A DNA stretch of 64,000 nucleotides from Schlesneria sp. (lineage in GTDB: Bacteria > Planctomycetota > Planctomycetia > Planctomycetales > Planctomycetaceae): the NCBI GenBank assembly GCA_028291515.1, contig JAQGHU010000064.1:62001-126000 (forward strand), given 5' to 3'. The notes beneath the pieces were generated by a model. That model was given only the letters and a program-made list of their open reading frames with translations, did not search any database and was not told where the DNA came from. The position numbers were made by a program, and so were the translations under genes. Positions 18,070 to 50,768 of this stretch are shown in pieces (position 1 is the stretch's first letter; every line of letters begins with the position of its first letter).

Positions 18070-18525
18070 TCAAGCTGTTGATTCGGGCACTGTCAGTTGA
18101 ACTTTTCGTACTCTTGGCTTTGGCTTCCAGAGAATCAGGTACGCCGAGAGCAGCGTCAGTGGGAGTGTCAGCCATGCGTAGTGGATGATGAAGTCGGTGG
18201 TGTGTCCTGGCGATGTTTTGCTAATCGCCAACCCAGCGCCCCGCCAGATCCATTCAATGTCGTCTTGCAGAAAGTCGAAGATCGTGATGTCGCTATTGTA
18301 CGGCAGTGTTACCCAGTAAGGGTCTGCCCCACCCCGATCTAGGTATGTCGGTTCCAATGCCAATTCGCCATTCACAGAAACGACGTAGGTGTAGGAATTC
18401 CAAATCGGGATCACGACCACATCGTGAAGGACGAAACTCCTGACCCATGCCGCCGTCAACAGGCACGCCATCGCCAGTGTGAGACATCCCACTTTCCGTC
18501 GCCAGCCGCGGACGAACTCACGCAT
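18070..18525 (-). CDS. GWRRK-LILWKP family membrane protein (copy A)
   Basis: 151 residues. The N-terminus MREFVRGWRRKVGCLTLAMA leads into a membrane helix to about residue 30. The C-terminus has a second helix, LPLTLLSAYLILWKP, followed by a basic tail. The middle 80 residues resemble no other family member beyond general composition. Its ATG overlaps the stop of copy B in ATGCGTGA, so translation is probably coupled. Last gene of the trio B/C upstream. Topology suggests both ends cytoplasmic and the variable middle outside. Function unknown. Confidence 0.8.
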   Translation of the reverse strand: MREFVRGWRRKVGCLTLAMACLLTAAWVRSFVLHDVVVIPIWNSYTYVVSVNGELALEPTYLDRGGADPYWVTLPYNSDITIFDFLQDDIEWIWRGAGLAISKTSPGHTTDFIIHYAWLTLPLTLLSAYLILWKPKPRVRKVQLTVPESTA

Positions 18526-18994
18526 TGGGAGGCCTCTTCCGTGGCTTCCAGAGAATCAAACAGGTGGACAGCAGAGTCAGGGGAAGGATCAAGACCCAAT
18601 AATGGACTCTCAGGAAATAGGTGCGGACTGCTGCTCCCAACCCTTGACCGTCACTCCATGGTCTTGATTCAACGGACCCGGCTCTCAGTCCACCCCAATT
18701 CCAATTGGCAGGCGAGTCGGCGTAGAGACGAATATCCACGACATCCACCTCGGGCAAGTCCATCATTACTACGGAGCTCCTCCATTTCAACTTCTCGACC
18801 TGTAAGGGGGGGCTTTGCCATTTCCAGGTAATGTAGCCTGCATCCGACCTCCACTCCGAACCGGAATGCCAACCGGGCACCTCGACCCAATCCGCGATAA
18901 AGTTGCTGCGGCCCCAGGCGATTCCGAACACGCACGCCATCGCCAGCGTGACGCAGCCCACTTTCCGTCGCCAGCCGCGAAAGAACTCACGCAT
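18518..18994 (-). CDS. GWRRK-LILWKP family membrane protein (copy B)
   Basis: 158 residues. MREFFRGWRRKVGCVTLAMA and the first helix are nearly identical to copy A, and the end LPLTLLSTCLILWKPRK matches too. The 90 residues between are Trp-rich and different. Both junctions of this gene use the same eight bases ATGCGTGA, overlapping copy A downstream and copy C upstream. Head-to-tail order and shared ends point to tandem duplication followed by divergence of the middle. Confidence 0.8.
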   Translation of the reverse strand: MREFFRGWRRKVGCVTLAMACVFGIAWGRSNFIADWVEVPGWHSGSEWRSDAGYITWKWQSPPLQVEKLKWRSSVVMMDLPEVDVVDIRLYADSPANWNWGGLRAGSVESRPWSDGQGLGAAVRTYFLRVHYWVLILPLTLLSTCLILWKPRKRPPNA

Positions 18995-19397
18995 TGAGAG
19001 GCTTCTTTCGCGGCTTCCAGAGAATCAGGTAGGCGGAGAGAAGGGTGAATGGGATGACCAAATTTCTATGGCTGATTACCCACCCATTTGGATTGAGTCC
19101 CTCGATATTCCCAATGAGCGTCAAAACATCAGTTATGTCCATAGCCATCGAATTGACCAAGTGTGCACTGCCTATGGCGGAACTCTCCCACATCCATGTC
19201 TGGCGAAGGTGGCCATCCAAAGATATCCAGATAACTCCATCTCGCAATGAGATGACCGTGTGTCGACGGTCGGCAATCTGAAAAGTAATCTCGTCAGTTA
19301 TTAGATTCGCACGCATCCACAGGGAGCACATCGCAACTGCCATCACCAGCGTGACTACGCCCGCTTTTCGTCGCCAGCCGTTGAAGAACGTGTGCAT
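18987..19397 (-). CDS. GWRRK-LILWKP family membrane protein (copy C)
   Basis: 136 residues, first gene of the A-B-C tandem. MHTFFNGWRRKAGVVTLVMA starts the first helix; the second helix is FTLLSAYLILWKPRKK. The middle (about residues 35-105) is again unrelated to the others. Its stop overlaps the ATG of copy B in ATGCGTGA. The promoter probably lies between 19398 and 19474, a short gap after the next upstream gene's stop. Confidence 0.8.
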   Translation of the reverse strand: MHTFFNGWRRKAGVVTLVMAVAMCSLWMRANLITDEITFQIADRRHTVISLRDGVIWISLDGHLRQTWMWESSAIGSAHLVNSMAMDITDVLTLIGNIEGLNPNGWVISHRNLVIPFTLLSAYLILWKPRKKPLNA

Positions 19398-19474
19398 GGT
19401 GGATCAGCCCGGCTTGTTAATGAAGCCCTCTCACACCACCAGACTTCCGTGGATCGTTCGGCATCCACCACCGA

Positions 19475-22141: not shown

Positions 22142-22172
22142 GCCCACGTGCCCGTCAATCACCTCATTCCCA

Positions 22173-22516
22173 GGTGAGCCGCGCTGCGTCAGCACGCGGA
22201 TAACTTCGCTTGCACAACACGGAAGAAGAGGCAATATCCATGCGGAGCCGTGGAGCCGCAATGGGGAGAGAGGGGAAAAATCCAGTGGAGCAACACTTCA
22301 GCGGGTGTCTCATTTGCGTGGAGGTGGTTACCAACGCGAAGGCGCAGAGGCGCGGGGACGCAAAGGGAAGAACGGAACCAGGCCAGTTGAATTCCACCGA
22401 GATTCCTCTGCTCTCATCTTTGCGTCTTAGCGCCTCTGCGCCTTTGCGTTGAAAACCCTTCATTCTGAATTTGGCAGGCATGAAGTAATCTACGTGCTGA
22501 CGCAGCGCGGCTCACC
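22173..22516. repeat. 344-bp element bounded by perfect 24-bp inverted repeats, with a nested inverted repeat
   Basis: Arms 22173-22196 and 22493-22516 are exact reverse complements (24 bases, beginning GGTGAGCCGCGCTGCG) and similarity extends weakly inward. Inside is a second inverted pair, 22333-22367 and 22418-22450, matching at about 29 of 33 positions (core GGCGCAGAGGCGC; repeat R6). It fills nearly all of the gene-free gap 22142-22547. There is no credible gene inside and no obvious target duplication outside. It resembles a MITE or a compound of intergenic repeats. Confidence 0.75.
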
Positions 22517-24139: not shown

Positions 24140-24223
24140 GTAGACCGCACACTCCGAGTGCGGAGTCTGCGTCGGCCTCAGATCACAAGATGCACAAAGC
24201 CCGGCCTGAGAGCAAGCCGGTTC
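24140..24223. repeat. Degenerate repeats: R4 hairpin and a half copy of the GCCCGGC hairpin
   Basis: 24140-24170 is an R4 relative (GCACACTCCGAGTGCGG with GAC/GTC flanks). 24183-24216 copies the left part of the hairpin at 25157 (AAAGCCCGGCCTGAGAGC) but then diverges, losing the right arm. They lie just upstream of the minus-strand PQQ-like gene. Confidence 0.6.
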
Positions 24224-24585: not shown

Positions 24586-25095
24586 TCAAGCATCTGATGC
24601 TCCTTGCCTGTTCTCTGTATCTAGTCGTACTTTTGGCTTCCAGAGCAGGAGACATGCAGAGATCAGTGACAAGGGAATTGCGGCAGCCAAATATGGCAAC
24701 CAAAAGCCGACGAACCAAAATGCGTTTGAAGTTTCACGATAAAAGCTAAACCGACCTCCCACAAAGGTCCATCCGTTAGACACAGAACTCATTCTGATGT
24801 GGAAATTTGTTTTTTGAACGCCGCTGTCTAGTGCATCGTTTGGATCGCAGCCCCATCTTGGGGAATCGCATGTTGTGGACTCCCATGCCTTGGTTTCATA
24901 CGGCAATCCTTGCATCACAGCCATACTGAAATGCCCGGTGCGCGAGATCCCGATGAACACCGGCCCTGGCCCTTTACCGATCGTGATCTCGTCTCGGGTC
25001 ACGCTACTTCGGGCGAAAGCGATCGCACAGAGAATGGCGAACAGCAACGATATAGTCCCGACCTTTCGCCGCCACCCGCGTAGGAAGTTGACCAT
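24586..25095 (-). CDS. GWRRK-LILWKP family membrane protein (copy H)
   Basis: 169 residues from the ATG at 25095; the open extension to 25242 runs through a hairpin repeat and is rejected. MVNFLRGWRRKVGTISLLFA starts helix one, IPLSLISACLLLWKPK is helix two. The middle has a Cys pair (CDSPRWGC) and a Gly/Phe-rich segment. It is a solitary, more diverged member: the DNA of its ends differs from the strict 16-base match shared by other copies. Confidence 0.75.
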   Translation of the reverse strand: MVNFLRGWRRKVGTISLLFAILCAIAFARSSVTRDEITIGKGPGPVFIGISRTGHFSMAVMQGLPYETKAWESTTCDSPRWGCDPNDALDSGVQKTNFHIRMSSVSNGWTFVGGRFSFYRETSNAFWFVGFWLPYLAAAIPLSLISACLLLWKPKVRLDTENRQGASDA

Positions 25096-25156
25096 CGAAG
25101 TCTCGGGTTGAGATTGAAAACTAGAAAAGTCGCCAGTCAAGTAAGCCAAAGATGCA

Positions 25157-25188
25157 CAAAGCCCGGCCTGAGAGCAAGCCGGGCTTTG
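25157..25188. terminator. Strong hairpin between S1-domain gene and copy H
   Basis: Perfect 11-base stem CAAAGCCCGGC / GCCGGGCTTTG with a ten-base loop. It lies downstream of the minus-strand S1-domain gene and upstream of copy H, so termination of the S1 transcript is likely, although there is no T tract. A broken copy occurs at 24183. Confidence 0.6.
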
Positions 25189-25211: not shown

Positions 25212-25298
25212 GTAGGTTATGCTTCAGCATAACTTTTCGCACTGGTACTCAAAGCCACCGCACTGCCGAAGAAAGTTATGCTGAAGCATAACCTACGG
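25212..25298. repeat. Inverted pair of palindromic repeat R3
   Basis: Two oppositely oriented copies (25212-25239 and 25271-25298) of a unit with core GTTATGCTTCAGCATAAC, itself a palindrome, separated by about 31 bases. The same inverted arrangement is found at 59010-59090. Confidence 0.85.
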
Positions 25299-38266: not shown

Positions 38267-38656
38267 ATGGCCAGGCCGGCTTCGAAGTATCCGACGGAAC
38301 TGGAACTGCAGATTCTGAAAGTGCTGTGGCAGCAGTCGCCGCTGCTCGCTCGCGACGTGCAGGCGTCGCTGGCCACCGACGGGCGGGATCTGGCGAAGAC
38401 GTCGATTATTACCACGCTCAATACGATGGTGACCAAGAAATACCTGGCGCGAGCCAAGCAGGGGAACATGTATTTGTTCAGCCCCCGGATCACCGAAAGC
38501 GAAGTCGGTGATCGCGTCATGGGAGACGTCGTCGACCGCGTGTTCGATGGCTCGACGTCGGCTGTGCTGCTGAAGCTGTTTGATGTCAAAGACGTCGACG
38601 CGGACGAACTGAAAGAGTTGCGTCGCATCATCGATCGAAAATTGAAAGAGACTTGA
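38267..38656 (+). CDS. BlaI/MecI/CopY family transcriptional repressor
   Basis: 129 residues. The N-terminal winged helix begins PTELELQILKVLWQQSPLLARDV and continues with TSIITTLNTMVTKKYLARAKQGNMYLFSP, typical of BlaI/MecI. GGGAG six bases upstream supports the start. The usual partner, a BlaR1-type M56 peptidase, is encoded 333 bases downstream; activated BlaR1 normally leads to repressor cleavage. Two palindromes upstream suggest autoregulation. Antibiotic resistance is not implied: planctomycetes carry many such pairs. Confidence 0.92.
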   Translation: MARPASKYPTELELQILKVLWQQSPLLARDVQASLATDGRDLAKTSIITTLNTMVTKKYLARAKQGNMYLFSPRITESEVGDRVMGDVVDRVFDGSTSAVLLKLFDVKDVDADELKELRRIIDRKLKET

Positions 38657-38671
38657 ATAACACTGACTACC

Positions 38672-38874
38672 GGGTGCCACGAACTTGGCGTCTTCGGCAT
38701 GGCCGTGTCTTGTGCCAGATAAACTCGGGCTTGTCGAGGACTCGAACATGGGCTTCGCCTCTCTCTGTTTCCTCTGTGCCTCTGTGTTTCAAAACTCTTC
38801 TTTGCACTACCGCGATTGCTTGCGGAAAAAGACGAAAGCATTTTTGAAACACAGAGGCACAGAGGGAACAGAGA
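38672..38874. repeat. Repeat R2 followed by an inverted pair of R1
   Basis: R2 at 38672-38712, R1 forward at 38761-38801 and R1 reverse at 38842-38874. The R1 arms can form a stem of about 30 bp with a 40-base loop. They occupy most of the 333-base gap between the blaI- and blaR1-like genes and could uncouple their transcription. Confidence 0.85.
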
Positions 38875-38989
38875 TTGAAGAGGCTTGTCATGACTCAAAA
38901 CATCAACTTGTGAACTCCACTGCGTCGCTCACATCCGTCCTGCAACATTCATTTCAAGATCAACAGATCAATCTCTCGGAACGATCGCC

Positions 38990-41900
38990 ATGAATACGCT
39001 GTCGTGGATTGTTGATGGTTCGTTTTCGACAAGGCTGACACTCGCGTTGTTGCACTTTCTGTGGCAGGGGTGTGCAGGCGGTTTGGTCGTCATCGTCGGC
39101 GGATGGCTGCTGCGCGATGCGGCTGCTCGATCTCGATACTTATTGAACGTGGCAACGATGCTGTTGATGTCGGCGTGCTTGCCAGTGACATTCCTGCTTC
39201 TCGACGCTCCCGACTCAGGGACTGAGCGCGCTGTCATTGCTCAGAGTCGCGAGTCACCCGCATTCGATACGAAGAGACCCGAACCGACCAAGGAACAAGC
39301 TCTTCCGGCCGGCTCTGATGTTGTGGGTTCAGACGAACCCTCCGTCGCACCAGATGTGACGACGCCCCCTCGCCCGAAGCCTGTAGAAGTCGCCTCAAAC
39401 CCTGTACCTCAGGCGACGCAGTTCCCTTCGCTCTCATCAATGCTCAGCGCGAGCACATTTGCGACGCTCGCGCGTTGGGTCGCCGTGTTGTACCTGACGG
39501 GTGTCACGCTGATTCTCGGACGATTGCTGCGAGGTGTCTGGGGTGGCGATCGGCTGCGGAAGATGGCCACCCCAATCAAGGATGCCGAGTTGCTGCAGAT
39601 GGTGCGCCAGCAAGCTCATCGACTCGGACTCAAGGTTGTGCCGACGATCGCGTGGTGCGAACAGATTTCCATTCCGGTCGTGGTCGGAATTATCACGCCG
39701 ATGATTCTGTTGCCGATGGCCGTCGCCAGCGGTCTGACTCCCAGCCAATTGCAAGCTCTGCTGCTGCACGAACTGTCACACATCCATCGCTTCGACCCGA
39801 TCGTCAATCTGCTGCAACGGATCGTCGAAGCCGCGTTGTTCTTTCATCCTCTGGTCTGGTTCGTCAGTCGGCGCATCAGTATCGAACGAGAATTGGCGGC
39901 CGACGACATGGTCCTGGCGGCAGGTTGGGATCGTCCACTCTATGCCGATGCCCTGGTTCGAGTCGCTGAGCTCGCATCGAGCATTTCCGGTTCCGACACA
40001 GCGCGCCGAGCCACAGTCCTGGGAGCGTCTGGAACGAATCCCTCAGAATTCAAAGCACGAGTCCTTCGACTCTTGGGTGAAGCGCCACCACCAAAATTAG
40101 ACCTCACCCGTGTCGGCATCGCCGTGACGCTACTGCTGCTCGTCGTGGGGGGAACAATTGCGTGGTCGCAATCCAACAAGCCTGAACAAACTGCCGCGCC
40201 CAGCAAACCGGCTGAGGACAATGCCGAGACTGCGAAGCCACTCGAAGATGAGATCGTGATTACCGGACGCGTCACCGATATGCGGGGCGACCCCATTGCG
40301 AAGGCGCTGGTTGTCTATACGCTGGGCTATGACCCTAGCACGGCGAAACCTCATACTTTGAAGGACGAAACAGATCGGAATGGGGCATTTCGGTTGGCCA
40401 TCAAGAAGTCGGACATTCCAACAGGCTTGAAACTCGGACCGATGGGGACTGTCTGGGCGTGGTCGAAGGGGTACGCCATCGGTGCCGCTTGCTTCGACGG
40501 CTCGGTGGATCTCAAGGCCGGAGCTCAGGGCAAGCCGGTCTCAATCCAACTGCCCAACTCATCGCAATCAGTCTTCGTTGTGAAAACGGAAACAGGAGCA
40601 CCACTGGCCGGCGCGACAGTCATTCCCAAGCTGGTTCGCGTCCCCAACGGCACTGATCCAATCGACGGATACTTTGGACTCTACGATCGATTGCCAGATG
40701 TACTCCTGGACAATGCCAGGCGAGTCACGGATGCCACGGGGCGTGTCGTGATTGACATCGTTCCTCGTTCGCGATTCCACGAATTGGAAGTGCACTCGAA
40801 ATCTCATGGGACACAATCCATGCGGTTGACGGCATCAACAGCCGAGGAAATATTACCCATGCGTGCCGTGAGCAGTGTAAGCGGCCAACTGGTCGACGGT
40901 CCCATCGAATGGATGCGAGGTGTTCGACTGTATCTTGTGACATCGGAGCGAGAGACGGAAGGGCAAGCTGAGGTCGTCACCGATCAGAACGGTTCCTTCC
41001 ATATTCCGGCTCTTGCCACAGGTACTTTGCGAATTAGCGCCCATCGCGATCCTCAACAACCATGGAGATTGGTCTTTGGCGACCAAATGCGAATTGCACC
41101 CGGTGGCGAGATCGATCTGACCCTCCGTGTCGCTAAAGGGATTCCGGTGACGGGTCGACTCGTCATTCAAGGGGGCGGCGAACCAGTCTCCCAGGCCAGT
41201 ATCTCCGTCAACTCAGGTAGTCTCGCCAACTCTAATACCTGTACTACCGACGAACGAGGCGAATTTCAAACGTTTGTCGTTCCAGGAGACAAGGCCGACA
41301 TCCAAGTCATCAACCTGTCTACACATCCAGGACTGACCTATCCGCCACGAGTGCACTCCAGGTTCACGATCCCGAAAGATGTCGACTCGTTCCGCATCCC
41401 CGATATTGAAATCCCAAAAGCAAAAGCATGGACTGGTCGACTGATTGACCAGTCAGGTCAGCCGATTGCTGGCAAGTACGTTCAGGCGTTCGATCGCGCG
41501 ACGCTGCAGGAATCTCCAGACCGCATCTACAATCAAGAACGCCTCATCCACCCAGTCCGCACCGACGCAGATGGAGCATTCAAACTCGTCCTTCGCGACG
41601 ATCAAATCCCCAACCGCTGGTCGGCACTGATCAAGTGGGACAAGGAGCCGGGCAATGCCGAAGATTCTCTGCCAGCCGAGATCGACTCAGTAGATCCGTT
41701 GGTTCTTCGCGTCAAACTACCAGACGTCACGACCACGTTCAAAAAACCACCACTCTTGCTACCGGATCATTGGATCGTCACGGCGGTCGGATTTGACAAC
41801 GACGGCAAAGAGCTTGTCACCGCTTCCATTCAAAGCTTCACCACGATCCGGCGCTGGGACCTCGTCAACAATAAGCTGATCAGCGAGATCATGCTCGAAA

Positions 41901-43354
41901 GCGACAAGCACGGTCGCCCCTTGCGCGGCGAGACGTTGATGCTGTCCGCAGATCGACGGAAAGTCATCGCGGCGACCGACGCCTATGTGGGGATCTGGGA
42001 CACCTCGACGGGCAAGCTGTTGAAACAACTGCAAATTCCCAAACTGAACGATAATGACACCGTTCGTCTGCTGACTTGCACGCCCGATTTTTCTGTCGTC
42101 GTGGGGAACTTAACCACCAACTATAGTCGCCTGACACTGCACTATGATGCCAACACCGTGGTCTGGGATGGTAACTCAGGCAAGATGCTGCGAATCCTGA
42201 CTCACAAGGGCCAGAATGACTTCATCGCCATCTCATTGTCGGCCAACGGAAAGCGGCTCGCCACGACCAATGGAGGCGGAGCCCTCATCTGGGACACCGG
42301 CACCGGCCAGCAACTGCTCGCCGTGACGAATGACAACTCTGGCCGAAAAAAATCCGACCCTGAAGTCTCCAACCAGTTCACGAACAACGTCTGGAGCATT
42401 CGGCTCTCTCCCGACGGCAAGTTGCTCGCGATGGGCGATACCCTGGGAGTGAAACTGCTCGACTCCACTTCGGGAAAGTTGGTGCAACAACTCGAAGGAC
42501 CGTATCGCTACAGCAGTGGGATTAGTCCGGGTCTGGTGTTCTCCAAAGACGGCCGGATGCTCGCGCGGCTGGGAACCAGAACCAAGGCCGAATATGTCAT
42601 TCCGATCTGGTCGACGCAGACAGGACAGAAGCTGTTTGAATTGCAGACCGACGCGTATGACGCGGCGTTCAGCGATGACGGCCAGCGGTTGGCCGTGGTG
42701 TTCTCGGACCTGCAGCAGGCCCTCAGCGTCTGGCAGCTTAATCGTGATGCGTCCGATCCAGAGCAGACAGAGGGCCCCGGACCAGAGCCGCGGCAGGACA
42801 AGGTCGAGCAAAACGGACACTATCGCGGCGCGACGGCGGCCCAGTTCATCGACACTTTCAAGCCAACGTGGAGTGACGCGAAGCTCGGCATTCAATACGG
42901 CATCGCTCTCACCAAGCCACAACGGCAGTTCCGCAACGGTGAACGAGTCCCCCTGGTCGCGTTCTTCCGCAACGCGAGCGACAAGCCACTGAAGATCGAT
43001 ACGCGACCAGACTACTTTGGGAACACGCCGAATGTGACAGATGCCAAGGGAGCAGCAGTCGCATTGGAAAATGTCCCGCTGGTCGGTCACATCGCGCACT
43101 ACGTCGAAACCCTCGCACCGGGCGAAGCGGTCGGCCCCTTCTACTTCAACTTCGGACTCGGCGAGAACCCACGCCCCGGCAAACAGCATTGGCATCCGTA
43201 CGACAAGGCACCCACACCGGGGACCTACACACTAACGCATTCGGTCCCGTTCAAAGTCGGTGGACCCAACAACGGCGACCCGTCAAAACCAGGCGAGATC
43301 ACCAGCGGGCAGATCGACTTCGAGATCGTTGACACTGCCAAGTCCGAGAATTAG
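38990..43354 (+). CDS. BlaR1-like M56 peptidase fused to carboxypeptidase-regulatory-like repeats and a WD40-like propeller
   Basis: 1454 residues. Helices near 15-70 and 165-185, then an M56 metalloprotease domain with zinc motif HELSH at 260-264 and ELAAD about 40 residues on. A helix at about 374-391 crosses the membrane. Residues 422-915 are repeated carboxypeptidase-regulatory-like (Ig-type) domains (ITGRVTDMRGDPIAKALVV; VTGRLVIQGGGEPVSQASI). Residues 920-1250 look like WD40 repeats (AVGFDNDGKELVTASI, SLSANGKRLATTNGGGALIW). The C-terminal 170 residues form another beta domain. It replaces the penicillin sensor of BlaR1 with other sensors and is paired with the BlaI-type gene. The signal it senses is unknown. 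Confidence 0.88.
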   Translation: MNTLSWIVDGSFSTRLTLALLHFLWQGCAGGLVVIVGGWLLRDAAARSRYLLNVATMLLMSACLPVTFLLLDAPDSGTERAVIAQSRESPAFDTKRPEPTKEQALPAGSDVVGSDEPSVAPDVTTPPRPKPVEVASNPVPQATQFPSLSSMLSASTFATLARWVAVLYLTGVTLILGRLLRGVWGGDRLRKMATPIKDAELLQMVRQQAHRLGLKVVPTIAWCEQISIPVVVGIITPMILLPMAVASGLTPSQLQALLLHELSHIHRFDPIVNLLQRIVEAALFFHPLVWFVSRRISIERELAADDMVLAAGWDRPLYADALVRVAELASSISGSDTARRATVLGASGTNPSEFKARVLRLLGEAPPPKLDLTRVGIAVTLLLLVVGGTIAWSQSNKPEQTAAPSKPAEDNAETAKPLEDEIVITGRVTDMRGDPIAKALVVYTLGYDPSTAKPHTLKDETDRNGAFRLAIKKSDIPTGLKLGPMGTVWAWSKGYAIGAACFDGSVDLKAGAQGKPVSIQLPNSSQSVFVVKTETGAPLAGATVIPKLVRVPNGTDPIDGYFGLYDRLPDVLLDNARRVTDATGRVVIDIVPRSRFHELEVHSKSHGTQSMRLTASTAEEILPMRAVSSVSGQLVDGPIEWMRGVRLYLVTSERETEGQAEVVTDQNGSFHIPALATGTLRISAHRDPQQPWRLVFGDQMRIAPGGEIDLTLRVAKGIPVTGRLVIQGGGEPVSQASISVNSGSLANSNTCTTDERGEFQTFVVPGDKADIQVINLSTHPGLTYPPRVHSRFTIPKDVDSFRIPDIEIPKAKAWTGRLIDQSGQPIAGKYVQAFDRATLQESPDRIYNQERLIHPVRTDADGAFKLVLRDDQIPNRWSALIKWDKEPGNAEDSLPAEIDSVDPLVLRVKLPDVTTTFKKPPLLLPDHWIVTAVGFDNDGKELVTASIQSFTTIRRWDLVNNKLISEIMLESDKHGRPLRGETLMLSADRRKVIAATDAYVGIWDTSTGKLLKQLQIPKLNDNDTVRLLTCTPDFSVVVGNLTTNYSRLTLHYDANTVVWDGNSGKMLRILTHKGQNDFIAISLSANGKRLATTNGGGALIWDTGTGQQLLAVTNDNSGRKKSDPEVSNQFTNNVWSIRLSPDGKLLAMGDTLGVKLLDSTSGKLVQQLEGPYRYSSGISPGLVFSKDGRMLARLGTRTKAEYVIPIWSTQTGQKLFELQTDAYDAAFSDDGQRLAVVFSDLQQALSVWQLNRDASDPEQTEGPGPEPRQDKVEQNGHYRGATAAQFIDTFKPTWSDAKLGIQYGIALTKPQRQFRNGERVPLVAFFRNASDKPLKIDTRPDYFGNTPNVTDAKGAAVALENVPLVGHIAHYVETLAPGEAVGPFYFNFGLGENPRPGKQHWHPYDKAPTPGTYTLTHSVPFKVGGPNNGDPSKPGEITSGQIDFEIVDTAKSEN

Positions 43355-43380
43355 TGCTCTCTGAATCAATTCCTCTCAGA

Positions 43381-43408
43381 ATCCGTGTTCATCCGTGTCA
43401 ATCCGTAG
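43381..43408 (-). repeat. Dispersed repeat R5
   Basis: ATCCGTGTTCATCCGTGTCA and continuing, the reverse complement of the R5 unit at 18024. It lies in the 63-base gap between two convergent genes. Confidence 0.7.
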
Positions 43409-43417
43409 CTCAGGTCT

Positions 43418-44254
43418 TTATTGAATCCCCACAGCCTGCATGTAATCCAGCACCGCTTTCGCTTCGGCGATTTCATTTTCATAGTCGGGGAAGGGGCCCT
43501 TAGCACCTCTGCTGATCAGGAATGGAATCACATCCTGGTGCGTTTGATACGACGCAGCAGCCGCTTCCAGAGGTGATTGACCTTCATGATCTTTCAGGTC
43601 GAAGCGAATGCCCGCCTCGTACAGTTGTTTCACCGTTTCCGCCTCGCGGCATTCGATCGCATAGAATACAGGATGAGTCCCACTGGGGGGCCACAGCGAC
43701 TGATCGAGGTCCGCAGCCATCGTCTTCACCTTCGCCCACTTCTCGTCAATGATCGCCATTTCCAGGCTTTCGAATTTCTTGCGCAATGCCGCCCGCTCTT
43801 TGGCTCGGTCCGAGGGTTGTTCGAGGCATCGCAGGAACTCACCAAAGGTCGCCGCGATCGGTTCGACACGTCGTAATTCAAATCCCGATTCAATGAACGA
43901 CCACGCCGAAACAGTCCCGATCCCTTCTCCGACCACGGTCAGCAGCAGCACGTTCTGTTCGTCATAGAGTCCCAGGGCCAGGTACTCCCGGGGCAGTTCC
44001 AACTCATCCCGAAAGTGCAGATTCATCGAGACCAGTTCGTACACCGACCTGGATGGTGTCGCAAACAACGAATACAGCTGTTCGATCTTGTAGTCGCCCC
44101 CATCCACCTTCAATGTCCGCGGCTTAGGCACGCCTCCATTGGTCTCTAACAGAAAGTCCGAGTAGTCCTTCGGAAACTCCACTTTCAGCGCCGCCGCCGC
44201 AGCACTCACAACATCCGCCGACACCTTCGCGGGCGATTTAAAAGTCAAAGCCAT
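43418..44254 (-). CDS. SUKH (SMI1/KNR4) domain protein with ankyrin-like C-terminus
   Basis: 278 residues. Residues 1-150 fit the SUKH fold: LKVEFPKDYSDFLLETNGGVP-type opening (split here: LKVEFPKDYSDFLL then ETNGGVPKPRT), YLALGLYDEQN, and FGEFLRCL at the end. Residues 190-260 resemble ankyrin repeats (THPVFYAIECREAETVKQLY, DLKDHEGQSPLEAAAASY). SUKH proteins are common immunity proteins in toxin systems; ankyrin fusions also occur. GAGG stands eight bases upstream. A truncated relative of its N-terminus lies at 47098. Confidence 0.85.
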   Translation of the reverse strand: MALTFKSPAKVSADVVSAAAAALKVEFPKDYSDFLLETNGGVPKPRTLKVDGGDYKIEQLYSLFATPSRSVYELVSMNLHFRDELELPREYLALGLYDEQNVLLLTVVGEGIGTVSAWSFIESGFELRRVEPIAATFGEFLRCLEQPSDRAKERAALRKKFESLEMAIIDEKWAKVKTMAADLDQSLWPPSGTHPVFYAIECREAETVKQLYEAGIRFDLKDHEGQSPLEAAAASYQTHQDVIPFLISRGAKGPFPDYENEIAEAKAVLDYMQAVGIQ

Positions 44255-44424
44255 GAGTGCATCCTCGATTGGGGGAGATTAGAAATGAACGGGACAAGGT
44301 TTGGCTGATGTCGAAATTGTTTCGCCCTTTCAGACAGCGCCGTGAAGCATGATTTGATGGACCAGTTTGGTTCGATATCTTTGCAGCCCTTATTCCAGCC
44401 TTGTCACATTGGCCTCTGTCATCA

Positions 44425-44520
44425 GGCCTAAGGGGCCGGAACTTTACCCAGCCGGGGCCCTTCGGCCCCGGAACAGGACTTCTAATACTCTCTCTTGAGG
44501 CCTGAAGGGCCGGCCCTTTT
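44425..44520. repeat. GC-rich hairpin repeats in a gene-free gap
   Basis: Perfect hairpin CCGGGGCC-CTTC-GGCCCCGG at 44452-44471, flanked by two similar segments (AGGCCTAAGGGGCCGG near 44424 and AGGCCTGAAGGGCCGG near 44498). No gene is visible in the 339 bases 44255-44593. The hairpin may act as a terminator after the minus-strand lipoprotein gene. Confidence 0.65.
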
Positions 44521-44593
44521 ATTCACATCACTGAGCGAAGCACCGTTTTTTGTATTGAACGTCAGACGCAGCCAAACTCGCGCAGGGGGGCGG

Positions 44594-45136
44594 TCACTCG
44601 GCCACAGTGGCATCTGGCCACGCCGCCACCGCCGCCCGGAATTTCTGTGAGTCGTTTTCCAATAGCATCAAGAGTTCCAATGCCGCATCGACACTCTCGA
44701 GCGGCTTTGATTCCGCGGCCAGCCCGATGCGCAGACCCCCTTTTCCATCGGAATCGAGGCCAATCACCTTGGCTCGAAACGGTCCGTCGTCGTTCGGAGT
44801 GCCAAGTGTCCCCTCCAGTTTCACCGTCGTGGAACCGATGTCCGTCTTCTTCGTGACATGAAGCAACGGTCGTTGTTGAGCATTCTTCCAATCAGTGGCG
44901 CGCAAGTGTTTTTCGATCGTGGCGGCATCGGGATCCGGAATCTTTTGTGTTTCTCCGAACACGAAACCAACAGTCAGGTTGTTCTCCGGTCCCTTCGCTG
45001 CTGCGGATCCCGAATTGCCCGTGCTCGAAGTCGACGGTGTGGGCGCAACCGGAGCAGCAGGTTTGGAACAACCCGCGATGGAAAAGGATGCGAGTAGAGC
45101 GACCACGGTGGCAAGAAAGCGGCTGGAATCGGGCAT
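44594..45136 (-). CDS. Lipoprotein, unknown
   Basis: 180 residues from the ATG at 45136 with AAGGA six bases upstream. Signal peptide with lipobox SIAGC (Cys at about 22), then a Pro/Ser/Thr-rich linker and a beta-rich domain of about 130 residues. I do not recognise the domain. Neighbours on the same strand encode a SIMPL-like protein and others with 38-70 base gaps, so an operon is possible. Confidence 0.75.
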   Translation of the reverse strand: MPDSSRFLATVVALLASFSIAGCSKPAAPVAPTPSTSSTGNSGSAAAKGPENNLTVGFVFGETQKIPDPDAATIEKHLRATDWKNAQQRPLLHVTKKTDIGSTTVKLEGTLGTPNDDGPFRAKVIGLDSDGKGGLRIGLAAESKPLESVDAALELLMLLENDSQKFRAAVAAWPDATVAE

Positions 45137-45174
45137 GATGGTCCTTAAGGCCAAGTAGGTAGTGTGAGTAATGA

Positions 45175-45882
45175 TCAGACGGGGTGGTCATTGCCTTGTT
45201 CTGCGTTTTCCACGGCAAAACGAATACGAAATTGCCGGGCTACTTTCGCTGGGCTAACTGGCAGACCGGCATAGGAGACGGTCTCTATCGGTTCCGCATC
45301 GATTGAGTCTTCTTCAACACTGTAGCCCCTGCCGCCATACGAAACGGATCTCTCCGGGGTCCCATTCCTTGTCACAAAGTGCTCAACGACAGACAGCATC
45401 CCTCCCAGTCGAACGCCAAGTTCGTCGGCCAGCAAAGTGGCCGTCGTCTGCGCCGATCGAATGGCTTCACGCAGGGCATCGCTCGCCGACGCATTCGCCT
45501 TGTAAACGGGAACCGGACGTTGAAAAGTGAAGTCTTGTTTCACCCGTCCAAAGAACGAGTGGGGCAGTGACGCAAAATGCCTTTCCGTCGCCGCCATCGC
45601 AGACATCAGGACGTCCATACTCGTGTTGCGGATCGTGATTCGATGAACGACAGTTTTCGTGGACGACCAGGTATTCTGCTCAGCCTCGCCGCCTCCTTCG
45701 CGAATCTCCGCATCGGTCAGGCCGCTCTTTCTCAGCGTTGCGAGCACAGCCTCTCGCAACGCAAGTGCCTCATCGAAGCAGATCACCTTTTTTCCAGTTG
45801 CTGTCGACAGAGCGAGCGTGGCTTCGAAAGCCTCGATTTCATGTTCCATTCGGGCACTGGTCAAGACTTCAATGTATCGCAA
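45175..45882 (-). CDS. SIMPL-domain (DUF541)-like protein
   Basis: 235 residues. Pattern of the SIMPL/DUF541 fold: an early segment with many small residues and AVLATLRKSGLTDAEIREGG, central VVHRITIRNTSMDVLMSAMAA, and DALREAIRSAQTTATLLADE-LGVRLGGMLSVVE, the typical Ala-rich helix and following turn. Unlike most members it has no signal peptide. SIMPL proteins are poorly understood; some bind signalling partners or resist oxidative stress. Confidence 0.6.
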   Translation of the reverse strand: MRYIEVLTSARMEHEIEAFEATLALSTATGKKVICFDEALALREAVLATLRKSGLTDAEIREGGGEAEQNTWSSTKTVVHRITIRNTSMDVLMSAMAATERHFASLPHSFFGRVKQDFTFQRPVPVYKANASASDALREAIRSAQTTATLLADELGVRLGGMLSVVEHFVTRNGTPERSVSYGGRGYSVEEDSIDAEPIETVSYAGLPVSPAKVARQFRIRFAVENAEQGNDHPV

Positions 45883-45953
45883 GTAGACTCCTCTCTAATA
45901 CAGAAAGATCGACTCCACTTATAGTCGCGTTGACTTGCTGGTTGAGCGGCCGC

Positions 45954-46598
45954 TTATTTCGATCCTCCGGCGCTCATTTTCGGACGCACATGCTTGTCGG
46001 AAAGTTCAACCAATTCGATCTGCGACAGATACCCTTTGATGCTCTGGTATCGATTGACATCCCGAAACGAAAACATCGTAGTAATCCGATGTGGCACGCC
46101 GAGGTGAATTCCAAACGTCCCCCCGGCAGATTGCATTGGCAGCAACGGCGGCGGTTCGTCTTGCCACGCGAACATCACGTACGTGATGGATTGAGCCACG
46201 ACGTCCTGTGTTTTCATGGGCTTCGCGAGTCTGTCGAACCACGTTGCGACGGCAGGCAGGTAGTCCAGAGAAAACTGCCAGCGGTGTTGACGGAAAAGCT
46301 CACCGTCCGCACTGGGAAGCTCATTGATGGCCGTGGGCTGACCGAGCACCTGATCAATCTCGACCGCAAGTTCCGAGAGCAATGGGTGCAGGGTCGAGTT
46401 CCATCCCACCATCAACTCAGAGGGCTGCGAGTAGATAATCGTGCATTTATCGCTCAGGAATTGGGTACAGCGATCGACGATAGCCGTCGCACTCAAGCGA
46501 CCAACCTGGTGGCCCCAGATCTGCGACTTTGGTGGAGAGTATCGAATCATAGACGACCGCGCGATGGCACAGGTGACAGAACAGGATTTCATTTCCAT
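45954..46598 (-). CDS. Hypothetical protein
   Basis: About 214 residues from the ATG at 46598 (GCGAGG upstream); a GTG at 46646 would overlap the end of the upstream DUF3806-like gene. Soluble, rich in Trp, Tyr and Pro, with a MVGWNSTLHPLLSELAVEID stretch in the middle and TMFSFRDVNRYQSIKGYLSQ near the end. It matches no family I can name. Gene order and tight spacing suggest cotranscription with the upstream gene. Confidence 0.65.
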   Translation of the reverse strand: MEMKSCSVTCAIARSSMIRYSPPKSQIWGHQVGRLSATAIVDRCTQFLSDKCTIIYSQPSELMVGWNSTLHPLLSELAVEIDQVLGQPTAINELPSADGELFRQHRWQFSLDYLPAVATWFDRLAKPMKTQDVVAQSITYVMFAWQDEPPPLLPMQSAGGTFGIHLGVPHRITTMFSFRDVNRYQSIKGYLSQIELVELSDKHVRPKMSAGGSK

Positions 46599-46627
46599 TA
46601 AGCCTCGCAGGGCTTCGCCGTCCGGCG

Positions 46628-47092
46628 TCACCAGAACTTCCACCACGGCTTCCCGGCATCGGCCTGGGCGACCGCCTGGACCTGCTCCGCGATTTGCTTG
46701 TACGACGCTTCCAAAAAGTTCGTCTCACGACGTTCCCAACGCTTGGCAACGAAGTTGGCCGGGTACACCAGCACGTCGCCTTTTCCGGGAAGCCCATGGA
46801 CCGCCAAGTCGGAGCCCTGCTTGTCGCTGGCGATCACCCACGCCAGGCCGACGCCATCGACCAGGAACTGCCCGAATGCCATGCTGACGCAATTGATCGC
46901 GCCGTTGACCAACTGATCGTCCGTTGGTTCGGTGCTGAGCCACGCGGTGAAGGAGCGATCCAAAGCGGCCAGCGTCAACGGCTGGCCCGCGTCCGGCGGT
47001 GAAAAGGCCTCGACAAACTTCGACGCCACTTCGATCTGCGACGCGACCCAGGCACGCTCCTTATCGGTCGGTGGGCTAACCTTCTGCTCCAT
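46628..47092 (-). CDS. DUF3806-like protein
   Basis: 154 residues. Features of the DUF3806 family: LVNGAINCVSMAFGQFLVDG, WVIASDKQGSDLAVHGLPG and VLVYPANFVAKRWERRETNF, which describe a small soluble domain resembling those seen in SUKH-type immunity clusters. It ends WWKFW. Directly upstream on the same strand is the degraded SUKH start at 47098, six bases away. Confidence 0.65.
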   Translation of the reverse strand: MEQKVSPPTDKERAWVASQIEVASKFVEAFSPPDAGQPLTLAALDRSFTAWLSTEPTDDQLVNGAINCVSMAFGQFLVDGVGLAWVIASDKQGSDLAVHGLPGKGDVLVYPANFVAKRWERRETNFLEASYKQIAEQVQAVAQADAGKPWWKFW

Positions 47093-47097
47093 GGTCT

Positions 47098-47229
47098 CTA
47101 CTCTCGATCCTCGACCCCGGCGGTCACAGGGTTGCAGCGTGACGTTGACTCCGGAAATTCGGCTTCGAGTGCTACTGCAGGAGCACTCACAACATCTGCC
47201 GAGATCTTCGCTGGCGACATGAAAGTGAT
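47098..47229 (-). pseudogene. Truncated N-terminus of a SUKH protein
   Basis: Minus-strand frame reading ITFMSPAKISADVVSA then PAVALEAEFPES, matching residues 4-30 of the SUKH protein at 43418 (TFKSPAKVSADVVSAAAAAL, then KVEFPKD), after which similarity stops. The DNA also matches over about 70 bases. An abandoned duplicate or recombination scar. It ends six bases from the DUF3806-like start. Confidence 0.6.
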
Positions 47230-47359
47230 GCGCAATCTGTCGATTTCTTCACAATCACTCAAGCGACGTCTGTGAATATTTCGCGAGGACTCTTTGAATG
47301 GTCTGTTATTCTGTCAATGTTCAATCCGGGCAACCAGTCTCGTCAAGAGATTGAGCTTT

Positions 47360-48001
47360 ATGACCTACAACGAAGTCACAACGATGAAGCAGTTCCCACA
47401 GCGCTTTGCGATGCAGATCGTGATTGGCCGCTTGATCCCGCTTCGAGCTCGATTTTCGACCGCTGTCTGGTTTCTATTCGGCGCGGTGTTGTTGAGCCTC
47501 TCTCAGAACATCACCTGGGCCTATATCAATGGCGGCGAGTGGCGCACGGATTTTCGCGAGCAGAAAGCCAACGTCGAAGCCGGGGGATGGCACGCCACGT
47601 TTGCGGGTGACTTCCCGAATCAGAACCAACTGTGGGTCACCTTCTATCCCGACTCGGATCCGCCGAGTAACTTCGATCGATTCGTCAAACTCGTCGTCGC
47701 CCGCGCAATTGCCGAACTCCCGGCGGACCAGGTCGCTCGATTCAGCACCGAACATCGAGATCGCCTTGTGATCCTGGCGAAAGAGTGGCTGACCACCGCG
47801 AAACGGAAACCGCCCTCAGAGCCAACCATTCACACCCTCGGCCCCTTCCAATTCAAACTCGGCGCAACAAAAGTCCGCACCTGGTGGGCCACCGGTCGCA
47901 AAACCCAGATCGAGAAAACCTACGACCTGTTCTACCTCGCCATCACACTTGACGAACCCGCCTCCGCGATCAGCCCCAGCAACATCGGTCTGTGCCGCTG
48001 A
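47360..48001 (+). CDS. Membrane-anchored hypothetical protein
   Basis: About 213 residues from the ATG at 47360 (AAGAGA upstream); an ATG at 47384 is possible. One hydrophobic segment near residues 27-45 of the longer form, then a soluble domain with GGEWRTDFREQKANVEAGGW and a 60-residue helical stretch, ending in beta-rich sequence. I do not recognise the family. It lies directly upstream of a GWRRK-LILWKP family gene on the same strand (79-base gap). Confidence 0.6.
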   Translation: MTYNEVTTMKQFPQRFAMQIVIGRLIPLRARFSTAVWFLFGAVLLSLSQNITWAYINGGEWRTDFREQKANVEAGGWHATFAGDFPNQNQLWVTFYPDSDPPSNFDRFVKLVVARAIAELPADQVARFSTEHRDRLVILAKEWLTTAKRKPPSEPTIHTLGPFQFKLGATKVRTWWATGRKTQIEKTYDLFYLAITLDEPASAISPSNIGLCR

Positions 48002-48080: not shown

Positions 48081-48446
48081 ATGAAAGAATTCTTCCACGG
48101 CTGGCGACGAAAGCTTGGATGCGTGGCGCTGGTGATGAGCCTCATCCTGATGGCGGGCTGGATACGGAGCCTTGCAATGACGGATGTGTTCACACGCTGG
48201 ACGAAAGGACCGAAGCAAGGATTGCTCATCGCAATCCAGTCGCGTGACGGCGAAATCGGATGGCGGACATTCCGCCCTATCGAGGTCGGCTTCGGGAATG
48301 GCTGGATCGCTTATCCAAACGTTCCACGATTACCATCCGATTTGAAATTCAACGTCATCCCCTACTGGTCGATTACAATTCCTCTCACGATCATCTCCGC
48401 GTACCTGATTCTCTGGAAGCCACGGAAGCAGTCATCCCCGATTTAG
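48081..48446 (+). CDS. GWRRK-LILWKP family membrane protein (copy G)
   Basis: 121 residues from the ATG at 48081; the open frame upstream to 47949 has no ribosome site. MKEFFHGWRRKLGCVALVMS begins helix one; helix two is IPLTIISAYLILWKPRK. The variable middle is only about 60 residues. This is the only copy in the window on the plus strand. The 16-base DNA stretch TGATTCTCTGGAAGCC near its 3' end is identical to that in copies A, B, C, D and F. Confidence 0.8.
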   Translation: MKEFFHGWRRKLGCVALVMSLILMAGWIRSLAMTDVFTRWTKGPKQGLLIAIQSRDGEIGWRTFRPIEVGFGNGWIAYPNVPRLPSDLKFNVIPYWSITIPLTIISAYLILWKPRKQSSPI

Positions 48447-49082: not shown

Positions 49083-49392
49083 CGGTAGGTGCTCAGGTCT
49101 GGCAGTGTCGTCATGCGAAGTGCGAATGTTGTCCGTTGCCGATTTACGAACACCTCCTTTTAGATTCGTTTGATGTTCCGCTCAATCGAATTCTCGAATG
49201 GCAATTTCGGGCCGGATTCTAGCGAAACGACGCAAGCTAACGCCCCGTCAGCGATTCGTGCGAACGTCGTCGAGTTCGATAATCGCAAATGGGGAAGGCG
49301 ACCCGCAACTCGCCTTGGGTCGGCGGTAATTGCCGAAAGGATCTCAAAGGGAGTGAACTAACTCAGAGACGAAGTGGGGAACATCGAACTTG

Positions 49393-49430
49393 TTTCTTTC
49401 CTCTGTGCCTCTGTGTTTCTAACTTCTTCT
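49393..49430 (+). repeat. Dispersed repeat R1, single copy
   Basis: Core CTCTGTGCCTCTGTGTTTC. It lies in the 357-base gap 49083-49439, just past the end of a frameshifted gene. Otherwise the gap shows no gene. Confidence 0.75.
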
Positions 49431-49439
49431 TGAGTTCGA

Positions 49440-49882
49440 TCATGGTCCGTCTTCAGCAGGCGTGACGAGATCCGTGCGAATAACGACTTGCGGCTTCCAG
49501 AGAATCAAGTAGGCGGAGAGCAACGTTAAAGGAAGTGCAAGCCACCAATAAAGCAGATAGCGGCAAGCCGGTTTTCTCCCCCTGTCAGTCAATTTAGCGA
49601 ACCCTTCGTTTAAGGATTCCGCAAAGGGGCGGTTCAAATGGAGTTGCTCAAATTCTTCCGGAAGGATCACCACATGTGCCACTCAAGTACGGGAGATCGA
49701 TCAACGGACAGCCAGGAGAGTCCGCTTTGACCGGAATTGACGTAGTGCAGTCGATCCCCGATCGCGAAGCAAAACTGGTCGGAAAAAAATAGCGTTCGCA
49801 CCCACAGTCCCGTCACGACGCACGCCATCACCAGCGTGATGCAGCCCGTCTTTCGCCGCCAACCTCGGAAGAATTCACGCAT
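49440..49882 (-). pseudogene. Frameshifted GWRRK-LILWKP family gene (copy D)
   Basis: The N-terminal part (49882 down to 49667) encodes MREFFRGWRRKTGCITLVMA, helix one and about 40 more residues, then a stop. The C-terminal part (from about 49682 down to 49440) is in another frame and supplies LALPLTLLSAYLILWKP. The two frames overlap by 16 bases near 49667-49682; one shift there would restore a protein of about 145 residues, the family's usual length. Upstream the ATG overlaps copy E's stop in ATGCGTGA. Mutation, sequencing error or recoding are all possible. Confidence 0.7.
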
Positions 49883-50309
49883 GGGGCTGAAGCTTCACGT
49901 TGGGTTTGCGCAATAGTAGGTACGCCGCTATGGCCGTCAGAATCGCGACTGCAGGTAGATCAGGAATACGGAGTCCGATGTGACCAGGTACCAACTTGCC
50001 AATTGAATTCGACCCATCATAGTACTGGAACGTACTTCTGTGTGTGACGTGGGGCTTCACTGGAAACGTCACCCAGTTGAACTCGTTTGAAGGCGGGATA
50101 ATCCTCGTATCGATCCACATATTCCACTGGTAACCACACTCGATGCCACAATCCTCAAACCTTAGTTCCAAATAGTCTCCACCACTGATGTCATAGCGAA
50201 TAACATCCTCGACGAGGGAACCCCGGATCAAAGCGATTTGAAACACGCACGCCATCGCGAGCGTGACTATGCCCGTCTTTCGTCGCCAACCATGAAAGAA
50301 CGTCTGCAT
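49875..50309 (-). CDS. GWRRK-LILWKP family membrane protein (copy E)
   Basis: 144 residues. MQTFFHGWRRKTGIVTLAMA begins helix one; the C-terminal helix VAILTAIAAYLLLRKPN is diverged from the usual LPLTLLSAYLILWKP. The middle is rich in Asp, Cys, Trp and Asn. Its stop overlaps the copy D start in ATGCGTGA. It starts nine bases after the stop of copy F, so D, E and F are probably cotranscribed. Confidence 0.78.
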   Translation of the reverse strand: MQTFFHGWRRKTGIVTLAMACVFQIALIRGSLVEDVIRYDISGGDYLELRFEDCGIECGYQWNMWIDTRIIPPSNEFNWVTFPVKPHVTHRSTFQYYDGSNSIGKLVPGHIGLRIPDLPAVAILTAIAAYLLLRKPNVKLQPHA

Positions 50310-50318
50310 TCGTGAAGC

Positions 50319-50768
50319 TCAGCCTGGCGGTGTCGGAGCAATCGGTTTGCGTGGCTTCCAGAGAATCAGATACGCGGAGAGCACAGTGAGAGGTAAGGTG
50401 ATAGTTGAGTAGTGAACGATGAAATAAATCGGCCAATCGTTGGTGCCCGCAACTTCCTTTCCAACACCAATCCCACAGCAACGAAAAAACCATGTAATGC
50501 GATCGTCCTCGAAGAAATCATAGTCCGTTCTCGGAACGGTGTCCCATTCCTGAAATGATGTTTTAACATCGGGCCACTCCTGGTGGACCTTTATCCAGAC
50601 GATCGAGCAGTCGAAAGAATAGATGATGTCAGTCGTGGCTGTTTCTTTGGCGAATTCGAAAATATCTGTCGTGGCTAGACTACGTATCCACGCGCCCATG
50701 CATGCGAGCGCCATCACCAGCGTGACGCAACCCATCTTTCGTCGCCAACCATGGAAGAACGTCTGCAT
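50319..50768 (-). CDS. GWRRK-LILWKP family membrane protein (copy F)
   Basis: 149 residues. MQTFFHGWRRKMGCVTLVMA and the helix-two end LPLTVLSAYLILWKPRK are both canonical. The middle contains three closely spaced Cys residues around an RCCGIG segment. It begins seven bases after the stop of the small membrane protein gene upstream, the first sign of a longer run of short membrane protein genes on this strand. Confidence 0.8.
   Translation of the reverse strand: MQTFFHGWRRKMGCVTLVMALACMGAWIRSLATTDIFEFAKETATTDIIYSFDCSIVWIKVHQEWPDVKTSFQEWDTVPRTDYDFFEDDRITWFFRCCGIGVGKEVAGTNDWPIYFIVHYSTITLPLTVLSAYLILWKPRKPIAPTPPG

Follow-up and report, generated by a model that had tools for sequence, protein, structure and literature searches.

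Fixed membrane ends and diverse, homologous middles in a multiplied two-helix protein family of Schlesneria

Within a window of 64,000 nucleotides from a Schlesneria genome (assembly GCA_028291515.1, contig JAQGHU010000064.1, positions 62,001 to 126,000), eight short loci start and end alike while the stretches between seem to have nothing in common. Are whole middles exchanged between constant ends, or have the copies simply multiplied, diverged and decayed? The original prediction, made from the letters of this DNA, had favoured cassette-like diversification of unrelated middles. In the following, G000 denotes the genome of the window and G012 its closest compared Schlesneria species.

Layout and anatomy of the loci in the window

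The loci of the two-helix family that carry both shared ends in the window are compiled in Table 1; seven of the eight are intact. Their positions and ends had been predicted correctly, with the amendment that the copy at 49440 is frame-broken and lies in two frames, and that the copy at 24586 starts at 25095. The DNA of the ends is conserved as claimed: TGATTCTCTGGAAGCC occurs exactly in six copies (at 18122, 18543, 19012, 48406, 49492 and 50353), and the ends of paralogues are alike at silent sites, too. When up to three mismatches are permitted, nine matches of TGATTCTCTGGAAGCC are obtained, seven of them within family copies, against 0.64 expected, which rules out chance similarity of the shared ends. 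Close neighbours on the same strand overlap by exactly 8 bp in 13 of 19 cases in G000 and in 8 of 11 in G012. An upstream box, GGTATCATG, accompanies 9 of 103 copies in G000 and 1 of 53 in G012, and was dropped as a general conserved upstream element.

Table 1. Copies of the two-helix family and associated short elements in the window
Feature	Position	Strand	Remarks
Copy 1	18070..18525	-	151 aa; helix, seven strands, helix (AlphaFold model)
Copy 2	18518..18994	-	158 aa; syntenic orthologue in G012
Copy 3	18987..19397	-	136 aa
Copy 4	24586..25095	-	within insertion of about 960 bp; start is the ATG at 25095
Copy 5	48081..48446	+	121 aa
Copy 6, broken	49440..49882	-	N piece 49667-49882; C piece 49440-49682 in other frame
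Copy 7	49875..50309	-	144 aa
Copy 8	50319..50768	-	149 aa; AlphaFold-modelled
8-bp seam ATGCGTGA	18518..18525	-	end of copy 18518 (..NA-stop) and start of copy 18070 (MRE..)
8-bp seam ATGCGTGA	18987..18994	-	joins copies 18987 and 18518
8-bp seam ATGCGTGA	49875..49882	-	joins copies 49875 and 49440
34-bp direct repeat, left	24187..24220		one copy, with one mismatch, at the G012 place
34-bp direct repeat, right	25149..25182		pairs with left copy at 24187

AlphaFold models of two window copies (18070 and 50319) display the same order of elements, a helix, seven strands and a second helix; for 50319 (mean pLDDT 91) the helices span residues 2-30 and 120-136, with all seven strands placed within 33-119. 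The two membrane anchors around a separate domain, as originally proposed, are thus borne out by modelling. The protein would run from a cytoplasmic N-end through helix 1 into a seven-stranded extracytoplasmic beta domain, and return through helix 2 to a positively charged cytoplasmic tail, an orientation that we infer. A fold search against the PDB gave no clear match, which does not amount to showing a new fold.

Copy number, turnover and spread of the family

At least 103 single-frame copies and at least 39 partial pieces reside in G000, compared with at least 53 single-frame copies in G012 (lower bounds, at most 150 candidates having been scored in each search); the copy-number variation that the original prediction asked about is therefore strong even between close species. 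At the aligned start, 94 of the 103 copies open in one frame in G000 have M or V. On contigs C63, C53 and C13, two or three matches among the weakest were not taken in, and 98 to 102 of the 103 copies were used depending on the analysis, with later sets omitting copies longer than 240 aa and those with an unplaceable C-end. From other genomes of the genus part of the copies was taken; the middle-homology set, for example, contains 37 CAILLA copies and 43 G008 copies.

Only 12 reciprocal best pairs between G000 and G012 are more than 50% identical, while syntenic flanks are 80-96% identical. Turnover is also seen at individual places. The syntenic position of copy 18070 in G012 (C157:1837) holds a copy with a different middle lineage between matching flanks, and at that of copy 18987 no more than the initial 12 codons or so can be recognised. 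Copy 48081 is missing from its syntenic place and copy 49875 from the G012 array, the broken copy 49440 has an intact G012 orthologue, and collinearity ends within the N-end of copy 50319, at about 50710. For copy 18518, the amino acids identical to the G012 orthologue number 29/36 in the N-end, 46/91 in the middle and 19/23 in the C-end. The insertion of about 960 bp with copy 24586, located between an S1-domain gene and a PQQ-like gene, was found neither in G012 nor in 13 other genus genomes compared; no donor could be named, because matches elsewhere in 15 genus genomes extend over only 38-63 bp.

The profile search suggested by the original prediction located the family in 12 of 15 Schlesneria genomes and showed it to be rare outside the genus: among 147 other genomes (at most 25 candidates scored in each), four contain a match at E ≤ 1e-3, each of them a single one. 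Nearly the whole profile is matched in L267, from another genus of the same family-rank taxon (E 1.9e-21); the matches in the three further genomes are weaker. Class-wide relatives, such as L267 and L268-L272, feature helix 1, the motif W-x-R/H-S, mostly followed by an acidic residue, a soluble part, an aromatic-W motif and helix 2. They resemble the two-helix family in motif order and length, but occur as one match per genome, not scores, and their ends are not FFxGWRRK and LSAYLILWKPRK. The hhalign profile-profile probability of 96.7 for five relatives other than L267 is circular, as the sequences had been picked with the same profile; a Pfam search with five sequences gave nothing convincing (best E 0.039).

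Middles, collinearity breaks and silent sites

Compared pairwise, the seven intact window middles look unrelated, with a sole notable match between 18070 and 50319 (E 0.003). With a profile built from the middles of other genomes, six of the seven, and 76 of 101 middles in G000, exceed the 99th percentile obtained with shuffled middles, which 18518 just misses; genus-wide, 195 of 310 middles match another at E ≤ 1e-3, compared with 1 of 310 shuffles. Taken together with the same element order in the models, these matches remove the claim of unrelated middles. Across ten orthologous pairs, the pooled dN/dS amounts to 0.21 for the N-end, 0.34 for the middle and 0.27 for the C-end, the highest single-pair value for a middle being 0.70; no paralogous pair entered the pool, nor did the pair C69:18102, whose orthology is doubtful. 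At 0.34, pooled diversifying selection on orthologous middles is not seen. On the sequence evidence, the middles are homologous, and the orthologous ones have been passed across species under pooled purifying selection. The original prediction had reasoned that homologous middles at a constant copy number would make this an ordinary gene family; the middles are homologous, but the copy number is not fixed.

Collinearity between G000 and G012 breaks at 79 edges on the G000 side. Thirteen lie in N-ends (2.5 expected from 3.2% of bases, p 1.2e-6), six in C-ends (2.4% of bases, p 0.011) and none in middles (5.8% of bases, 4.6 expected); the remaining edges are outside copies, and 57 of the 79 fall outside any copy in both genomes. 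Breakpoints are thus over-represented in the conserved ends, where the original prediction had proposed to look for them, with the reservation that BLAST edges may extend slightly into a paralogous end, so that an N-end edge may reflect a break located at the start codon or immediately ahead of it.

This excess in the ends would suit an active cassette system, in which, as in antigenic variation, an exposed domain is varied by swapping whole middles between loci via the conserved ends. So would the pair 18070 and C157:1837, and the pair L141/L145, whose middles are identical at 78 of 79 silent sites between flanks of 84-87% identity, as if recently crossed between species. The expected product of rapid swapping, however, is near-identical N-ends around unalignable middles, and among the 30,244 pairs whose middles cannot be aligned none has an N-end DNA identity of at least 88% (one has a C-end identity of at least 90%). 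All 17 non-overlapping cross-genome pairs whose ends reach at least 80% amino-acid identity prove to have homologous middles, and the pooled estimate for orthologous middles points to purifying selection. Rapid swapping is therefore not supported, and the cassette-like diversification of the original prediction appears improbable.

The silent sites bear on a simpler account, ordinary birth and death without gene conversion, in which a recent radiation left ends under strong protein and codon constraint and middles that diverge fast after duplication. Purifying selection on the ends and the many broken copies fit it. Paralogue ends within a genome share 0.51-0.53 of silent sites, where 0.29-0.31 is expected from middle codon use or 0.37 from neighbouring genes. 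Unalignable middles should be old, because orthologous middles are constrained, yet the silent sites of paralogue ends are unsaturated. An early test on 32 pairs picked by middle identity placed the ends below the middles in 25 (p 7e-5); since this choice was biased, the test was redone with neutral and reverse selection, degeneracy strata and control ORFs. Between orthologues the ends again fall below the middles, with a stratified odds ratio of 0.67 (p 6e-7) and lower values in 28 of 41 pairs (p 0.01), whereas control pairs of non-family ORFs show no dip (odds ratios 1.11 for 18 pairs and 1.06 for 12). This dip and the collinearity breaks in the ends speak against birth and death alone. On its side, the closest species pair, G000-G012, by itself has no significant dip (odds ratio 0.83, p 0.25, 12 pairs), and its orthologue ends track the middles (silent identity 0.738 versus 0.755, 14 pairs). 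For nine clade-A copies with a homologous middle in another clade, the silent identity of the ends is 0.438 to that homologue, compared with 0.523 to copies of the own genome whose middles are unrelated; the value for the homologue is the lower one in 8 of 9 (borderline, p 0.055 and 0.074); in a looser set of 18 cross-clade pairs the values are 0.471 and 0.469 (p 0.87), so these ends are not drawn to own-genome copies. The C-ends of tandem neighbours are not more alike than other C-ends (p 0.55). On balance, birth and death without conversion is rather unlikely.

The data are probably best accounted for by birth and death combined with partial gene conversion that affects the membrane ends, the diverse outer beta domains between them being long-lived. 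A two-helix membrane protein would have expanded at the level of the genus, its copies gained and lost via homologous (unequal) recombination at the shared ends. Copies would often form head-to-tail arrays, with genes overlapping by ATGCGTGA, and would occasionally be inserted at new sites. The same recombination would shift short end tracts among paralogues, in other words act as partial, ectopic gene conversion, such that the ends stay alike genome-wide and each middle persists as a lineage of its own, long-lived and subject to purifying selection. The mobile part would then be the ends rather than the middles. Conversion may be the source of the silent-site pattern; the likeness of paralogue ends could in part stem from a young radiation in which the middles diverged fast at first, or from constraint on the ends at the level of DNA or RNA.

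A proposed common chassis and comparable known systems

What stands of the original prediction are the loci, the shared ends, the two anchors, the copy-number variation and the breaks in the ends; the unrelated middles do not stand, and cassette swapping appears improbable. A single bacterial genome contains about a hundred diverged copies of one small protein whose membrane ends are fixed, and the extracytoplasmic domain is available in many natural variants. Ends alike among paralogues and less stable than the middles among orthologues would constitute a clean bacterial case of partial gene conversion. As to function, the most likely reading is one membrane chassis, serving a shared partner or mixed oligomers, that would display many binding domains, several of them co-translated. 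Among 84 members, Pfam returned nothing convincing (best E 0.01) and the PADLOC anti-phage defence models no hit at E ≤ 0.01; NCBIfam (seven proteins), PHROGs (six) and the PDB gave no convincing match, and searches of open-access paper listings showed no description of the family.

In the antigenic-variation cassette systems, such as the pilin and vls loci, constant flanks surround variable middles and recombination proceeds through the flanks. The two-helix family differs in that its middles are conserved across species and near-identical ends around unrelated middles are missing at the N-end threshold used. Closer at hand, the passages of PMC8567305 on the N_methyl / SBP_bac_10 family describe its expansion in Planctomycetales to 41 or more genes per genome. 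A large planctomycete expansion and a shared N-terminal region are common to both; the family studied here, with its two predicted helices, occurs mainly in one genus, and none of its 84 members matched the N_methyl / SBP_bac_10 Pfam models at E ≤ 0.1. Finally, one may think of the clustered protocadherins of vertebrates, in which regional gene conversion homogenises part of the gene, to more than 99% identity among fugu paralogues in the account given in PMC1852091. It would be a long shot to see in the two-helix family their bacterial counterpart: about a hundred membrane hairpins on one chassis, which ectopic gene conversion would keep interchangeable; they would be co-translated from overlapping arrays and form mixed complexes whose many extracytoplasmic domains would provide a strain-specific recognition code for self or kin, ligands or attackers. 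No homology is claimed; the likeness lies in tandem paralogues with one part of the gene homogenised and other extracellular domains kept individual, while protocadherins are animal adhesion proteins with homogenised parts above 99% (fugu), compared with about 57% DNA identity in the two-helix ends.

Extent of the family and its window copies

A profile (A1) built from 31 copies of the family, small two-helix membrane proteins with similar ends and a differing middle, gave at least 147 matches in the 8.59-Mb assembly of the organism itself, G000 (best 150 of 314 candidates scored). Stop-to-stop frame extraction yielded 103 copies that are full-length in a single frame, besides 39 partial pieces; of the former, 94 have M or V at the aligned start. 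These counts are approximate, since several copies lie near contig ends. With the best ≤66 candidates scored per genome, the family was present in at least 12 of 15 genus genomes, its own included, and absent from 44 further genomes at E ≤ 1e-3. A wider search of the class covered 148 genomes (best ≤25 candidates scored in each); among the matches listed for the 147 other genomes, L267 from another genus of the same taxonomic family is strong and nearly full-length (E 1.9e-21), and three others that are weaker reach E ≤ 1e-3. The motif W-x-R/H-S after helix 1 is common to L267 (as GRS), the three weaker matches and the sparse relatives L271 and L272, and an aromatic residue plus W precedes helix 2 in those class-wide relatives whose match extends there. 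Profile–profile comparison with five such relatives, picked with the family profile itself, gave a probability of 96.7.

The eight window loci with fixed protein ends were confirmed, seven of them being single open frames, as was the conservation of their DNA, the 16-mer TGATTCTCTGGAAGCC being exact in six copies. The head-to-tail sets 18070/18518/18987 and 49440/49875 have in common the 8-base overlap ATGCGTGA, in which the upstream gene ends (..A*) and the downstream one starts (MRE..). Genome-wide, close neighbours on the same strand (gap <60 bp) share an overlap of exactly 8 bp in 13 of 19 cases in G000 and in 8 of 11 in its nearest relative, G012. As a separate observation, a box like GGTATCATG, perhaps a candidate promoter of leaderless messages, immediately precedes the start of 9 among the 103 full-length copies (40 bp upstream scanned; background 0.0007 per window).

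Coordinates of window copies and of other features (bare numbers are window positions)
Feature	Location	Observation
Copy	18070	G012 has, at the syntenic place, a copy with a middle from another lineage
Copy	18518	Syntenic orthologue in G012
Copies	18987, 24586, 48081, 49875, 50319	Without full counterpart at their G012 places
Copy 49440	49667-49882 + 49440-49682	Broken by frame change; syntenic orthologue in G012, intact there
Paired GTTATGCTTCAGCATAAC / GTTATGCTGAAGCATAAC elements	25216-25292	Two of four sites; pair forms long inverted repeat
Paired GTTATGCTTCAGCATAAC / GTTATGCTGAAGCATAAC elements	59015-59085	Two of four sites
Apparent dispersed repeat	22160-22480, 49289-49465	Similar nonsense frames on translation (by eye only)
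Length difference	32430-47465	~15 kb vs ~2.5 kb at collinear G012 place (C157:15571-18128); large insertion or deletion between family loci
Fused frame	L204:2732-3184	Family-like N-end (MREFFHWGRRKAG..) in frame with unrelated-looking tail starting SGCGF..; among family copies
Neighbouring genes	L204:1-1103, 2157-2735, 4527-5237	Resemble members of a further small family of membrane paralogues, interspersed among family copies (by eye only)
Long single frames	G000:C67:303108-304544; G006:C238 (519 aa)	Several family-like stretches
Copies in two species	L141:3001-3480, L145:3001-3495	Middles identical at 78/79 silent sites; flanks 84-87% identical

Homology of the middles and turnover of copies

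The original prediction held the middles to be unrelated and likened the family to cassette-like diversification; the first part did not withstand comparison. With N- and C-ends removed, 165 of 256 middles match another at E ≤ 1e-3 (0/256 match shuffled middles), and in a larger genome set 195 of 310 do so vs 1 of 310 for shuffles. A profile made solely from 210 middles of other genomes separated 101 own middles from shuffles with an AUC of 0.943, and placed 76 of them, 6 of the 7 intact window copies included, above the 99th percentile of shuffles. As judged from sequence similarity, the middles of the family are homologous. The earlier impression is understandable, because 113 of 310 middles are singletons in pairwise BLAST (E ≤ 1e-3) and 25 of the 101 fall below the profile threshold. 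Fast swapping was not borne out either: among 30,244 pairs whose middles cannot be aligned, none has N-ends ≥88% identical, and C-ends ≥90% identical occur in one. The middle common to L141 and L145 may represent a recent exchange between species.

G012 belongs to the same genus; its S1-gene DNA is 94% identical to that of G000, and syntenic blocks are 80–96% identical (filter, above 80%). It carries 53 full-length copies vs the 103 of G000, and only 12 reciprocal best pairs exceed 50% identity; one of these is evidently a paralogous match. Neither G012 nor any of 13 other genus genomes has a family copy at the place of 24586, downstream of S1, and a PQQ-like gene adjoins S1 in 12 of those 13. 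An exact 34-bp direct repeat flanks the 24586 insertion in G000. A single copy of it, with one mismatch, is present in G012; a donor was not found in the 15 genus genomes searched. Pooled over 10 orthologous G000/G012 pairs, dS/dN was 0.30/0.063 for the N-end, 0.33/0.112 for the middle and 0.40/0.110 for the C-end; the pooled dN/dS (0.21, 0.34 and 0.27, respectively) makes the middles, individually 0.08 to 0.70, a little less constrained than the ends, and pooled diversifying selection on the middles was not seen in these pairs.

Probable recombination in the ends

Recombination breakpoints at the conserved ends found support in the 79 inner edges of G000/G012 collinear blocks, placed on the G000 side: 13 fall inside N-ends, which make up 3.2% of bases (p 1.2e-6), 6 inside C-ends (2.4%, p 0.011) and none inside middles (5.8%); 57 edges are outside any copy in both genomes. 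Own-genome paralogues use the same codon at 0.51–0.53 of identical N-end and 0.51 of identical C-end residues (sampled from all paralogue pairs, regardless of middles), where 0.29–0.31 is expected from the codon use of middles and 0.37 from that of six neighbouring genes. Subsets with unrelated middles gave 0.42–0.52, and comparisons of G000 with other clades gave lower sharing (C-ends 0.31–0.39, N-ends 0.40–0.48). The codon sharing, taken by itself, could also reflect constraint on the ends at the codon level or a young radiation; these fit less easily the excess of breaks in the ends, and less easily the behaviour of orthologues. Compared within 41 reciprocal best pairs, with strata for pair and codon degeneracy, the ends are less alike than the middles at silent sites (odds ratio 0.67 at p 5.8e-7; the ends score lower in 28 of 41 individual pairs, p 0.01), also when pairs are picked by their ends instead (0.62; lower in 13 of 17, p 0.017), and mechanical non-family ORF pairs show no such dip (1.11 in 18 pairs, 1.06 in 12). 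Among G000–G012 pairs alone the dip was not significant (0.83, p 0.25; lower in 9 of 12).

The simplest account of the break, codon-sharing, orthologue, cross-clade and swapping results is homologous recombination between paralogues via their shared ends. Unequal crossing-over would gain and lose units; short conversion tracts would keep the ends alike genome-wide and, over long times, slacken the link of ends to middles. For nine clade-A copies whose middle has a homologue outside the clade, silent identity of the ends was 0.438 to this homologue, 0.523 to copies of the own genome whose middles are unrelated, and 0.439 to unrelated copies in the homologue's genome (lower to the homologue than to the own genome in 8 of 9, p 0.055). 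The case for paralogue recombination is slightly weakened by 18 cross-clade pairs which, with both sides averaged, gave no difference (0.471 to the homologue vs 0.469, p 0.87). Copies adjacent in tandem resemble each other slightly more in their N-ends (0.624 vs 0.579, p 0.002; 29 pairs), and their C-ends are not more alike than others (p 0.55).

Putative function and known analogies

Since the ends are conserved, the outer domains diverse and the co-oriented genes overlapping, the family suggests a shared chassis bearing different binding domains that would be made together. No convincing match was obtained in libraries including Pfam, NCBIfam, PADLOC and PHROGs, and no description of the family was found among the open-access papers listed for Schlesneria paralogues and planctomycete paralogisation; other expanded planctomycete families are reported in PMC8567305. 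By evolutionary pattern, the nearest known analogy is offered by the fugu protocadherins, which, according to PMC1852091, undergo regional gene conversion.
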